Of a stretch of 41,880 bases of DNA, positions 4,449 through 12,793 are shown in pieces. The DNA comes from Treponema sp. GTDB lineage: Bacteria > Spirochaetota > Spirochaetia > Treponematales > Breznakiellaceae. Every line of letters starts with the position of its first letter. Position 1 is the first letter of the stretch. Location of the stretch: NCBI GenBank assembly GCA_031275325.1, contig JAISOX010000082.1, positions 1 through 41,880 on the forward strand. Reading direction: 5' to 3'. The translations under genes and the position numbers were made by a program. The notes beneath the pieces were generated by a model, which was not told where the DNA came from, did no database searches, and was given only the letters and a program-made list of their open reading frames with translations.

Positions 4449-6632
4449 TCATCCGACGTGCCGTTTAATTCCCATCTGTCCGCGAATCTCCGCGTATTCC
4501 TCAAGGATTTGCTTTTCCGCCCAGGCTTGGTCGATGATTTTTTCCACCCGGCAGGCCGCGTACTTGTACTCCGGCGTGTTGCTCACCGGATCCAGGGAAG
4601 CCTGGGTCAGCTCGTTACACGCGCCTATCCACCACTGGTAGGTCATGTAAACCGCGCCCCGTTTTACCCGGTCAGTAGGCAGGCAGCGGGTTATACAGTA
4701 CCCGCGCTTGGAAAGCACTTTAACCAGTTCGCCTTTCCGGGCGCCGATGGCCTCGCAGTCTTCGGGATTCATCTGGGCCCAGCCTGGCTCATCCTCAAGG
4801 TTGCGCAGCAGCCGGCAGTTGCCGCTCATGGTACGCACCGAGTAGTGGCCAACCTCGCGCACCGTGGAAAGCACCATGGGGTACTCGTTGTTTTCCAGTT
4901 CCTTGGGCGGACGCCAATCCGTACCGTAGAACTTCGCCTTTCCGTCCGGGTGGGCAAACTTGGCGCCCTTGTGAAGGTAAGGCGTCCCCTGGTCGGTCAT
5001 GGCCTTGTCCCTGCAGGGCCACTGCACACTGCCGAATTTTTCGATCTTTTCGTAGGTCGCGCCAGCAAAACTTGGACACAAATCGATCAACTCATTCCAG
5101 ATTTCCTCGGTGTTGTGATAATGCATGGGGTAGCCCATGGCGGTAGAAATGGCGCAGATGATTTCCCAATCGGTCTTCACATCCCCCTGAGGCTCAATGA
5201 GCTTGCGCACACGCTGAAAACCACGGTCGCAGCAGGTATAGACGCCGTCATGCTCACACCATCCCGTCGCGGGAAGGATCACATCCGCGTGGCGGCCGGT
5301 CTTGTTCATAAAAATATCCTGCATCACGACAAAATCGCATTTATCCAGCGCCTCTCGCACCTCCGCAAGGTCCGGGTCTGACTGCGCGGGATCCTCCCCG
5401 AAGATGTAGTACGCGTGAATCTGTTTCGCGGGATCCTTTTCGTGTAGCACCCGGTGGGGCACATGGGTAATGGGACAGCCCACTTGTCCTGATAGTTTAG
5501 CGCCCCAGGCTTTTTCGAACTTTTCCCGTATGACCGGGTCGGTTACACTCTGGTATCCGGGGAAGCAATTCGGCAGCGCACCCATATCACACGCGCCCTG
5601 CACATTGTTCTGGCCCCGCACTGGGCCGATGCCGGTTGATGGACGGCCAAAGTTGCCGGTCATGATCGCAAGATTCGCAAGCCCTTTGACTACATCCACT
5701 GCCTGGGCAAACTGACAGACGCCCATGCCGTAAAGTATCATGGAACACCCCGAAGTCGCGTACATCCGGGCGGCCTTCCGTATATCCTCCGGGTCAACCC
5801 GGGTGATTTCCGTTACATACTCCGGCGTGTATTTCTCCACAATGGCCGCGAATTCGTCAAACCCCGTTGAATGCTGCTCGATAAAATCCCGGTCGATAAG
5901 ATCTTCTTTGATAATTACCTGGGCGATAGCATTCACCAGAGCGAGATTAGAGCCGTTTTTAAGCTGAAGATGCATATCCGCGATACGCGCGGTCTCAATC
6001 CTGCGGGGATCAACGCAGATGATTTTTGCGCCTTTTTCCTTGGCCCGGACTATCCTGCGCGCGACGATAGGATGGGAATCAGCCCCATTGTAACCAAAAA
6101 TGAACAGAAGTTTAGCGTCCTCAATTTCTGGAACGCCCATTGACATTGCGCCTGAACCCAATGAATACTGTAGACCCGCTACAGAAGGCGCGTGTCATAT
6201 TCGCGCGCAGTGGTCAACATTATTAGTGCCGATACATGCGCGCATGAATTTCTGCATGATGTAGTTGGCCTCGTTGCCCGCCCCTCGTGCGGAACCGGTA
6301 CCCATAATGGAATCGGGACCGTATGTATTCTTGATTTCAGTAAAACGGTCGGCCACATAGGAAATAGCCTCCGCCCATTCGACTTCTTCGAGGGGGCTGC
6401 CCTTGCCGCGTTTGCGAATCATCGGCTTTTTCAGCCGCTTCGTAAGAATCTGCGGATCATTAAGATAATCCCAGCCATACCAGCCTTTCAGACACAGGGT
6501 CCCCTCGTTAGTACGGCCCTTCGCCGGCGCTGCTTCCAGAATTTTGTTCTGTGCAGTATCCACCGAGAACCGGATCTGACATCCCGCGCCGCAATACGCG
6601 CAGGTACTCTGAATTTCTTTTATATTCGACAT
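4449..6632 (-). CDS. fdhF: Selenocysteine-containing formate dehydrogenase H (about 727 aa), Sec at the in-frame TGA 6195-6197
   Basis: ORFs 6195-6632 and 4449-6161 are in one frame, separated only by TGA: ...[32 protein letters not shown]..., cf. E. coli FdhF GTNNVDCCARV-U-HGPSVA. N-terminal CAYCGAGC iron-sulfur motif. Confidence 0.96.
6168..6197 (-). promoter_or_regulatory. Bacterial SECIS element (UGA plus hairpin)
   Basis: TGA followed 10 nt later by CTGTAG-CGGGT-CTACAG, a 6-bp stem with GG in the loop, at bSECIS-like distance. Confidence 0.85.
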
Positions 6633-6742: not shown

Positions 6743-6836
6743 GGAGGTGAATGTCGCCTGGTGGCGGCTGCGGACTTCAAATCCGTCAAAGAGTGGAAAC
6801 GCCCTTGGTGAGTTCGATTCTCACACGCCTCCGCCA
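6743..6836 (+). tRNA. selC: tRNA-Sec (anticodon TCA), CCA encoded
   Basis: 94 nt including CCA; long extra arm; CGGACTTCAAATCCG anticodon arm; GGAGGTG...CGCCTCC acceptor; GAGTTCGATTCTC T arm. Confidence 0.96.
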
Positions 6837-8593: not shown

Positions 8594-10015
8594 ATGACTG
8601 ATTCCACTATACACAATGCGCTGCGTTCCATTCCGGCAATGGATGAACTGCTCAATACGCCCTGGGCGCTTGCATTTTCAGGCAGGCTGGGGAGGGAGAC
8701 GGTAAAAAAAATAATAGCAGAGGCGCTGGACGGGTTAAAGCGGGATATATGCGCCGGCGCGCAATTCAATATGCCGGTGGATGGGCTTGCCGCGTTTCGT
8801 GCGGAAAATCTGCTCCGCGCGCGGGCGTCGAGTACGCTTAAACCGGTGATAAATGCTACGGGCGTGGTGGTGCATACCAACCTTGGCCGGTCGCCGCTTG
8901 CCAAGGAGGCCCTTCGCGCGGTACATGAGATTGCAGGCGTTTACAGTACCCTGGAATATGCACCGGAAAAAGGCGGACGGGACGGGCGCAATGCTCATGT
9001 TGAATGGAGCGTCTGCCAGATGACCGGCGCTGAAGCCGCGCTGGTGGTGAACAATAATGCCGCGGCGGTACTGCTGGCGTTGTCCGCGACGGCTGCGGGA
9101 CGGGAAGTGATCGTATCCTGCGGGGAGCTTGTCGAGATAGGCGGCTCTTTCAGAATTCCCGAAATAATCTCTTTTTCGGGCGCAAAAATGACCGCTATTG
9201 GCTGTACAAACGTAACCCGTATAAGGGACTACCGTAACGCAATCACGGAAAATACCGCGGTTTTGCTCAAGGTTCACCCCTCAAACTACCGGATAGACGG
9301 TTTTGTAAAACCCGTTCCCCGTGAAGAACTGGCGGAACTGGCGGCTTCCCGGGCGCTGGTATTCATGGAGGATCTTGGCAGCGGCCTCCTCTGTCAGCCT
9401 GGCGTCTCCTTTGCAAACCGGGAACATCAGGTCAGGGATTGTCTTAAATCTGGCGCGGGCGTGGTAACTTTTTCGGGGGACAAATTACTTGGCGGGCCGC
9501 AGATCGGCGTAATCGCCGGTTCAAAGCATCTGATAGACACGATGAAGCGCCACCAGCTTTTGCGGGCGCTGCGGGTGGATAAAATGACCCTCGCGGCCTT
9601 TGAAGCGACGCTCCGGATGTATCTTTCCGGCAGGCAGGGTGAGATTCCGGTGATCAGGATGATAGAAGCGGACAAAAAGACGCTTCTTAAAAAAGCCCGG
9701 GCTTTGTGCCGTATGTTGAAGGACGCCGCGGCCCGGGTGAACGCCGTTGCTCTTGTCATTTCTGTTGTGGAGACCTGTGACGCGGTGGGCGGCGGCGCGT
9801 ATCCCACGGACAAACTTCCTGGTTACGGCGTTGCGGTCCGGGCCGCTTCCGGCAGCGCCGAAGGACTCGCGCTGGGTCTCAGAACAGCCCCTATTCCGGT
9901 GATTCCGGGGCTACGGGACGGCTGCGTCATCCTTCATGTCCGCGCGCTGTTACCCGGCGATGAGCAGTCAATCGCTGCGGCATTTACCGCGGCATTGTCC
10001 GCTATGGGCAGGTAA
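8594..10015 (+). CDS. selA: L-seryl-tRNA(Sec) selenium transferase
   Basis: KPVINATGVVVHTNLGRSPLAKEA and VTFSGDKLLGGPQIGVIAG (PLP lysine region) are SelA hallmarks. Confidence 0.97.
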   Translation: MTDSTIHNALRSIPAMDELLNTPWALAFSGRLGRETVKKIIAEALDGLKRDICAGAQFNMPVDGLAAFRAENLLRARASSTLKPVINATGVVVHTNLGRSPLAKEALRAVHEIAGVYSTLEYAPEKGGRDGRNAHVEWSVCQMTGAEAALVVNNNAAAVLLALSATAAGREVIVSCGELVEIGGSFRIPEIISFSGAKMTAIGCTNVTRIRDYRNAITENTAVLLKVHPSNYRIDGFVKPVPREELAELAASRALVFMEDLGSGLLCQPGVSFANREHQVRDCLKSGAGVVTFSGDKLLGGPQIGVIAGSKHLIDTMKRHQLLRALRVDKMTLAAFEATLRMYLSGRQGEIPVIRMIEADKKTLLKKARALCRMLKDAAARVNAVALVISVVETCDAVGGGAYPTDKLPGYGVAVRAASGSAEGLALGLRTAPIPVIPGLRDGCVILHVRALLPGDEQSIAAAFTAALSAMGR

Positions 10016-10284: not shown

Positions 10285-10396
10285 GGTTCGGAAACCTCCA
10301 CTGCTGAACCCCAGCCCCTTAGCACATGCAGCAGGTTCAGTGTTTTGTAAGGCCGGTACTGGGCTAAAGCCTCCGGCAGCCAACCGGGTTGCCGGG
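10285..10396. repeat. Composite multi-hairpin element, copy A (between selA and the HU-like gene)
   Basis: Ordered short inverted repeats GGTTcggaAACC, CTGAACC...GGTTCAG, GGCTaaAGCC, CGGCAG-CCAACCGGG-TTGCCG; same order near 24947-25098. Confidence 0.6.
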
Positions 10397-10523
10397 CCAA
10401 GTCCTCGAATCTTCTAAAATCGTCCGGTTATTTTGAAAAAAGCTCCGATAATTTCGATAAAGACTTGATAAAAATAAATTTCTACCCCTATGATTAGCTA
10501 ATTTTCCCTGAAAAGGAGTATAT

Positions 10524-10838
10524 ATGCCGGTTAAACTGAAGAAAATCAAGCGGAAAAGCCCGCTTAATACGGCGCTTTCCAAGTGGTATCGTACTCAGGA
10601 GACCACCGGAAGCGTGGGCTTACAGGAAATCGAGGGACGGGCCGCGCTTTCCCTGGGGGACATACAGAGCGTCAAACTGGAGGATTTGGGGACATTCCGC
10701 ATTACCCTATCCAGTGAGGGCATGGCAACCCCGGATGAGTTGAACGCCCGTCATGGTAAAGGGACAAAGCTGGTGTTTTTGCCGAGGGTTGAACTGAAAC
10801 GCAGCCTTGGGGATATTTCTTTTGAAAGGGCGCCGTAA
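10524..10838 (+). CDS. Short HU/IHF-superfamily-like (Bacteroidetes-type 'HU-HIG' style) DNA-binding protein
   Basis: 104 aa with [12 protein letters not shown]...[21 protein letters not shown] resembling FGSFrltlSSEG...F.PgkeLk..L..i.Fek of that family; RBS aaaaggag. Confidence 0.65.
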
Positions 10839-10843
10839 AAATA

Positions 10844-12793
10844 ATGGAGTACCCCTTTATATTTGGGACTGCCGGGCATATCGACCACGGTAAAACCGCG
10901 CTTGTACGGGCTCTCACAGGAGTAGACTGCGACCGCCTTGAGGAAGAAAAGCGCCGGGGTATCACCATTGAGCTGGGTTTTGCCCCATTGACCTTGGCTA
11001 ACGGGAAGACCGTGAGCATCGTGGATGTCCCCGGACACGAGCGCTTTATACGGCAAATGGCGGCAGGCGCTGCCGGTATGGACGCGGCCATGCTGGTAAT
11101 TGCGGCAAGCGAAGGGGTCATGCCCCAGACCCGGGAGCACCTGGATATTCTCCATATTCTTGGCGTCAAATTCGGTTTGGTGGCTCTGACCAAGAAAGAT
11201 TTGGTTGACGGCGAAACCCTGGAACTGGCGATTGCGGAAGCAGTGGACGTAATCCGGGGAACCTGCCTTGAGGCCGCGCCCATCATTCCTGTTTCATCGG
11301 TAACCGGAGAAGGGGTCTTACGCATACGGGAGGAAATGGAACGGATCCTGGATACCATACCGCCGAGAAAGGGGTTCGGCGCGTTTTTCCTTCCCATTGA
11401 CCGGGTCTTCAGCCAAAAGGGGTTCGGGACGGTGGTAACCGGAACTTCCTATCAGGGGAGTATTGCCGTAGGGGATGAAGTGGCTATTATGCCTTCCGCT
11501 GCGGTGGGAAAGGTCCGTTCCCTCCAGACCCATGGGGCGAATATCCATACGGTTCCCGCAGGTCAGCGGGTGGCCGTCAACCTCTCTTCCGTTTCCCAGG
11601 CCCAACTGGAGCGGGGGGATGCGGTCTGTGCAAAAGGGGCTTTTATCGCCACCAACTGCATGAATACCTGGCTTGAGGTCCTGCCCTCCGCGCCAAAGGG
11701 CGTAACTCACTGGCAGCGGGTGCGGCTCCATGTGGGGACCGCGGATGTTATCGCCAGGGTTTCCCTGCTCGACATGAAGGGGGACAAGAAAAAATCAGCC
11801 ATCCTGCCGGGAAGCGGCGGGCCTGCGCAGCTGCTCACCGAATCCAAAATAACCGTTACTGCGGGACAACGATTCGTGATTCGCTTCTACAGTCCGCTGC
11901 TCACCATAGGCGGGGGACGGATTATGCTGCCCAATGCGGAAGCGGTAAAAGGCAGGGCAGAGCGTGAAGCCAAAGCAGCCATAATCACGGCACTGTCAGG
12001 CGATTTCGGTCCGGTTTCCCTGCTTGCGGCAATCCTTTGGGATAAGGGCATCCTGAACGTATCCGGCCTGTTCGCGCTGTCCCAGATGGATAAAAAGGTA
12101 TTCCAGGAGAACCTGGGCTTACTGTCCGCTGCAGCGGAGAAATACGGACTTTTGGAATTCGGCTCATCCCGGAATTTCATCTCCGCGGCCGCGTTCGACC
12201 GGGCGCTCCATGGGGTGCTGCGGATTCTCCGGGACTTCCATGCCAAGTATCCTGAACGCGCGGGAATAGACGCCGAGAAATTACATGCCTCCCTGGGCGA
12301 TGGGGCGGCTAAAATTACCAGCGGGGATTTCAAAGAACTCATCCGCCTCATGGCGGCAAAAAATAGCATTGTGTCTGTTGAGGCCCAGGGAAAAACCTGT
12401 TACCGGATGGCAGGATACAGCCAGTCTCTGGATAAAAAACTCATGGACCTTGTGGAGCGTATCAGGGATGAGAGCGCGGGCGCGCGCTTCAATCTGGTAA
12501 AACTTTCGGAACTGGAAGAGAAACTAAGGGCTTCCCCTTCCTATATAAAGCGGGCGCTTGTCTTTTTGCGGGAAAGCGAGGACCTCAGGGTACTGGAAGG
12601 GGGCCTCTTGTTCCCCCGTGAGACCAGGGAACAGCTCCTTAGGGAGATTGCTTCGATGAACGGCGATATAACCGTGGCCTCCCTGCGGGACGCTCTGGGG
12701 GTGAACAGAAAATACAGCCTCGCGATGCTTGATTTCCTGGACGCCCAGGGATTGACCCAGCGGGTCGGGGATAAAAGGATTCTGAAAAGATAG
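10844..12793 (+). CDS. selB: Selenocysteine-specific elongation factor SelB
   Basis: [65 protein letters not shown]-terminal winged-helix region. Confidence 0.97.

Follow-up and report, generated by a model that had tools for sequence, protein, structure and literature searches.

An internally deleted HU-HIG gene upstream of selB in a Treponema genome bin, and the repeat arrays that precede its relatives

Directly upstream of selB in a Treponema genome bin lies an open reading frame (ORF) of 104 aa that is probably best explained as a decaying copy of an HU-HIG gene whose promoter now precedes selB. It is located in the window, by which we mean the whole stretch of 41,880 nucleotides that was analysed, a complete contig (C79) of genome bin G000, which comprises 178 contigs and is 66% complete. 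According to this account, an HU-HIG gene with its own promoter and a 21-bp-phased repeat array would have arrived between selA and selB, would then have lost 12 bp and 54 bp through slippage between short direct repeats, and would have piled up changes at conserved sites. The remaining use would be in cis, with the HU promoter and ribosome-binding site driving the selB transcript. The account draws on the following features of the window.

8594 to 10015, + strand: selA, identified by an NCBIfam model, 508 bp before the HU gene
10402 to 10464, + strand: worn array of three 21-bp units, TCCTCGAATCTTCTAAAATCG, TCCGGTTATTTTGAAAAAAGC and TCCGATAATTTCGATAAAGAC, recognized by lag-21 identity and by a position homologous to that of the clear arrays of paralogues
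10465 to 10494, + strand: sigma-70-like promoter, TTGATA and TATGAT with an 18-bp spacer, 10 of 12 matches, its -35 box in 21-bp phase with the array
10513 to 10518, + strand: ribosome-binding site AAGGAG of the HU ORF, read directly from the sequence
10524 to 10838, + strand: internally deleted HU-HIG gene, 104 aa, identified as an ORF with a PF18291 match and by alignment with relatives
10626 to 10632, + strand: junction of the 12-bp deletion, GAAATCG here and GAAATCG-CAAAG-GAAATCG in the intact paralogue
10664 to 10672, + strand: junction of the 54-bp deletion, ACAGAGCGT here and, in the intact paralogue, ACAAAGTGT and ACAAAGCGT, 54 bp apart
10844 to 12793, + strand: selB, identified by an NCBIfam model, 3' of the HU promoter

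The preliminary description of this DNA had called the product HU-HIG-like, and the Pfam model PF18291 (HU-HIG, an HU domain fused to a wHTH, Ig or Gly-rich motif) confirms this, with a match of 2.4e-8 and 34.5 bits against a curated cut-off of 26.2. The NCBIfam model TIGR01201 (HU_rel) gives 33.4 bits, which is below its curated cut-off of 68.6, and a direct search of the PDB with the 104-aa protein found no HU match. Full-length relatives match the whole PF18291 profile, whereas the window copy is missing most of helix 2 and part of helix 1, although positions 58–125 of the profile, the beta-arm and C-terminal part, are well kept. It carries no wHTH, Ig or Gly-rich fusion and thus represents the HU part alone; such a fusion is likewise absent from the full-length relatives (about 125–134 aa). 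Judged by its sequence, the ORF is a degenerate copy and not a full member of the HU-HIG family, in that a complete core with helices 1 and 2 is missing. Similarity to canonical HU/IHF proteins is much lower: the profile of the relatives aligns with helix 2 and the beta-strand GFGTF region of HU-alpha (PDB 1MUL) weakly, with an E-value of about 0.02. The closest relatives in a public collection are Treponema and Spirochaetaceae metagenome bins which, from a reading of their isolate names, originate from termite and cockroach guts. In the Bacteroidota members that we examined the HU-HIG gene adjoins a gene for N-acetylmuramoyl-L-alanine amidase, as seen in three Bacteroidota plasmid records (L204, L206 and L207) where the amidase gene follows HU-HIG, while the gene in the window does not.

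An alignment of the 104-aa protein with 23 full-length relatives, one of which is a paralogue of 124–125 aa in the window's own genome (G000:C12), revealed two in-frame gaps totalling 22 aa. The larger is of 18 residues after LSLGDI(Q) and removes most of helix 2; the smaller is of 4 residues in helix 1, where EIAKEIEG has become EIEG. Neither gap occurs in any of the 23 relatives. A loss of 20–25 residues from the dimerisation helix had been proposed, and the loss itself is real, but it is split between two helices and the gap in helix 1 had been overlooked. At the DNA level, with the nearest intact paralogue (G006:C156) as reference, direct repeats of 7 and 9 bp coincide with the two gaps. 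These direct repeats originate from repeated codons and are in the same codon phase, so slippage between them needs no selection to keep the frame. In addition to the gaps, the window copy has around ten substitutions.

The surroundings of the HU gene form a selenium island, with genes for a sulphur-transport protein, two TusA-domain proteins, a class-V aminotransferase and a SelD-like protein. The island also holds a molybdopterin oxidoreductase of the formate dehydrogenase type (4449–6632, minus strand) that is read in two frames, 4449–6161 and 6195–6632, with a stop after VDHCARI that is probably a selenocysteine UGA. The gene for tRNA-Sec is found just past this oxidoreductase, at 6743–6836; a position between selA and selB is thereby ruled out.

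The start signals of the HU gene are well preserved. The intact frame and good ribosome-binding site noted in the preliminary description, and its spacing of 5 nt between the HU stop codon and the ATG of selB, all hold, and the leader at the ribosome-binding site, GGAGTATATATG, is identical in G006:C156. Two such promoter sites were counted where shuffles average 1.3, an excess that carries no significance by itself; the position of the promoter agrees with that of the promoters of paralogues. We found no further promoter between the HU promoter and selB, and transcription of selB most likely now begins from the HU promoter, with the HU ribosome-binding site at the head of the transcript.

A selB match is present in 34 of 200 genomes of the window's GTDB family, and most of these 34 loci were surveyed for HU sequence with flanks of up to 1.5 kb. 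HU sequence adjoins selB at only two of them, in the window and in genome G005, and no intact HU gene was found beside selB at any other locus surveyed in the family. The preliminary description had looked to a clade sharing the shortened gene and its linkage to selB; instead, the sole other copy next to selB is a nonsense-mutated, truncated relic, a stub of about 36 codons (114 bp) directly 5' of selB that ends 24 nt before it. The HU start signals upstream of selB are retained in both genomes. In G005, selB (G005:C263:868-2838) has no selA alongside, and the upstream neighbour is an IclR-like regulator. Several relatives have selA directly next to selB, or about 75–105 bp from it, with nothing HU-like between; these are sites without the HU gene. 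Linkage of an HU gene to selA and selB, as a mark of membership in the Sec operon, is not conserved across species at the loci surveyed, and no conserved neighbours of HU copies were found, as the copies are mostly solitary and at differing places.

The 12-bp gap is common to the window copy and the G005 stub and is absent from every other copy. In the selB tree G000, G002 and G005 form one clade (96/89), although selB of G005 is on a long branch (0.55), which makes its placement less sure. A single insertion in this selB clade is suggested, and it would fit the shared 12-bp gap. A second slippage or insertion, making two events, is possible instead, because G002 is without HU and the nearest copy to the G005 relic is not the one in the window.

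An explanation other than decay, which we consider unlikely, is that the ORF serves as a leader whose frame and length matter while the protein does not, with ribosomes finishing 5 nt before selB and re-starting there. The short distance to selB is in keeping with this, as is the end of the G005 stub close to selB, and the ribosome-binding site of selB in the window (GAAAGGG, 13 nt before the ATG) looks weaker than AGGAGGGG in G002. However, an intact frame would be expected without selection from repeats in codon phase, and the arrangement is known from two genomes only.

The preliminary description had proposed that the shortened gene encodes a minimal HU-like protein acting as a regulator of the Sec operon or as a chaperone of tRNA-Sec or SECIS RNA. 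The open frame and good start signals count in favour of such a protein and against decay, and the conserved beta-arm and C-terminal part would also suit it. The 12-bp deletion common to the two selB-linked copies could hint at selection, though no working protein can come from the G005 copy. Nevertheless, we regard a working protein of this kind as very improbable. The losses from the two helices, which take away the greater part of helix 2, probably prevent the 104-aa product from dimerising in the intertwined manner of HU. Among 102 compared codons, the window copy differs from the consensus at 8 positions that at least 95% of the other copies share; this is twice the highest figure for intact copies (0–4), and an undoubted pseudogene, G001:C111, has 12. 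For the window copy, dN/dS against the nearest copy is 0.21, whereas intact pairs have a median of 0.10. As dS is close to saturation in most pairs, the value points at most to relaxed constraint and not to neutrality, and since it is far below 1, much of the divergence of the copy arose under constraint. AlphaFold models are of low confidence for both the full-length and the shortened form (pLDDT 49 and 45, respectively). In Foldseek, all of the top 20 hits of the full-length model are HU/IHF structures, 4FMR of Bacteroides vulgatus among them, with no E-value below 0.001, and the shortened model has none; both models being poor, this contrast serves as supporting evidence only. No clade conserves the shortened form, and a full-length paralogue is present in the same genome. 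A full helix in the homologues together with a recent deletion here, which the preliminary description had itself set against its proposal, is largely what was found, as all 23 relatives keep the helix. Decayed HU copies are moreover frequent in the family: G001, G006, G009, G020 and other genomes have copies that contain stops, are truncated or end in an interruption. That the shortening is an error of assembly is hardly credible, even in a fragmented bin and with both gaps at repeats, given that assemblies of this kind use k-mers much longer than the repeats of 7 and 9 bp, that around ten substitutions accompany the gaps and that the 12-bp gap is independently present in G005.

The decaying copy in the window also retains traces of a feature that is widespread among its relatives. 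Tandem repeats with a period of 21–22 bp lie just 5' of the promoter in 23 of the 31 HU copies of the family, which are related and hence are not 31 independent events. By comparison, of 264 control regions upstream of other ORFs at these loci, 10 have such an array, and some of these arrays may themselves be HU-derived; none of 620 shuffles has one. The unit sequence varies among copies (for example GCTTGATCTCCTGGGAAAAAC, CAGTGAGATTTTCTAAAAACT, CCCGGAGAATTTTGAAAAATT and GACTCCCGCATCTCATGGCTAC), while the period is constant at two helical turns. In the window the units start at 10402, 10423 and 10444, and the -35 box at 10465 follows exactly 21 bp further. Lag-21 identity in 10396–10472, a region picked by eye after the paralogue arrays were known, is 54% against a mean of 26% in dinucleotide shuffles, and was reached by 0 of 5000 shuffles. 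Tandem Repeats Finder did not report the window array, which is detected by the phase test alone. In an order-wide sample, arrays precede 6 of 10 diverged HU-HIG genes with enough upstream sequence but none of 14 canonical HU genes. The cultured species Treponema saccharophilum has an array too, ahead of the HU-HIG gene on its plasmid pTS1; the protein encoded there is 38% identical to that of G006:C156. In a literature search mostly outside subscription journals we found no description of arrays linked to HU-HIG genes.

Related arrays are also dispersed within genomes. Genome G008 (98% complete) has two HU-HIG paralogues (C147 and C13) with unlike arrays, and each type recurs at about eight further sites (L153–L167). 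A search of six other genomes did not find the first type, whose sites lack HU and have the same left and right ends. The second type is also present in G009, where the HU copy of that subfamily is broken. At four G008 loci (L161, L162, L164 and L165) type-B arrays are followed by the HU promoter, and in three of these by a truncated HU start; the type-B decayed copies share their left end, which lies about 196 bp upstream of the ATG. Because a truncated HU start follows, some of the second-type sites are taken to be decayed copies. In G260, a single contig, HU-HIG lies next to a 284-bp array with about 13 units (L175), which recurs at three other chromosomal sites (L221–L223), one of them at the 3' end of an ABC-transporter ORF. 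Extra array sites are present in G242 and G254, and G000 has more sites that resemble the array of its intact C12 copy; on contigs C53, C97, C80, C165 and C175 of G000, near-palindromic units ATGATCCGTATCAT form short intergenic arrays of this kind. Two sites, G002:C176:14044-14095 and G009:C111:2220-2281, hold an array, or an array and promoter, with no HU gene, the latter being 5' of a ferredoxin-like ORF. Sites within one genome thus share an array family, and each family goes with a particular HU paralogue. The dispersed arrays are candidate binding sites or passengers of duplication, and we favour duplication for some of them because a G242 site has the left flank of a relative's HU array and several sites are at gene ends.

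HU sequences were also sought on mobile elements. Viral contigs gave no match, and phage and Bacteroidota plasmid records gave distant matches of about 30% identity. Treponeme-type HU-HIG genes occur on contigs binned as Planctomycetaceae or Azoarcus (L120, L139, L140 and L143), which likely reflects binning errors or transfer.

Plasmid iterons and ParB/parS-type sites are tandem repeats spaced about two helical turns apart beside the gene for a DNA-binding protein. The arrays described here resemble them in that such repeats adjoin an HU-HIG gene, with binding being putative in this case; they differ in that the protein is HU-HIG and in that the unit sequence differs among paralogues. REP sequences and RAYT genes provide another parallel, with a gene and related dispersed repeats in one genome, as is seen here for an HU-HIG gene and its family of dispersed repeats. 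Unlike RAYT, HU-HIG proteins are not known to have nuclease or transposase activity.

HU proteins are commonly held to bind DNA with little sequence preference. The arrays suggest that HU-HIG proteins may have candidate cognate repeats, and we tentatively propose, while recognizing that the proposal could well fail, that treponeme HU-HIG constitutes a sequence-specific DNA-organising system in which each paralogue has its own family of 21–22-bp arrays. The arrays would be putative operators or loading sites, or the gene and its array would spread jointly as a repeat element, and the window would be an eroded example whose promoter has been taken over by selB. The window offers an HU gene that is crumbling while its promoter may serve an essential part of the selenocysteine machinery. 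The link between HU-HIG and the arrays is of more general interest than the decayed gene, and reaches two treponeme families and plasmid pTS1 of a cultured species. If each paralogue does have its own array, this would provide a direct handle on sequence-specific HU proteins, and also on why the HU-HIG family multiplies and decays so fast.
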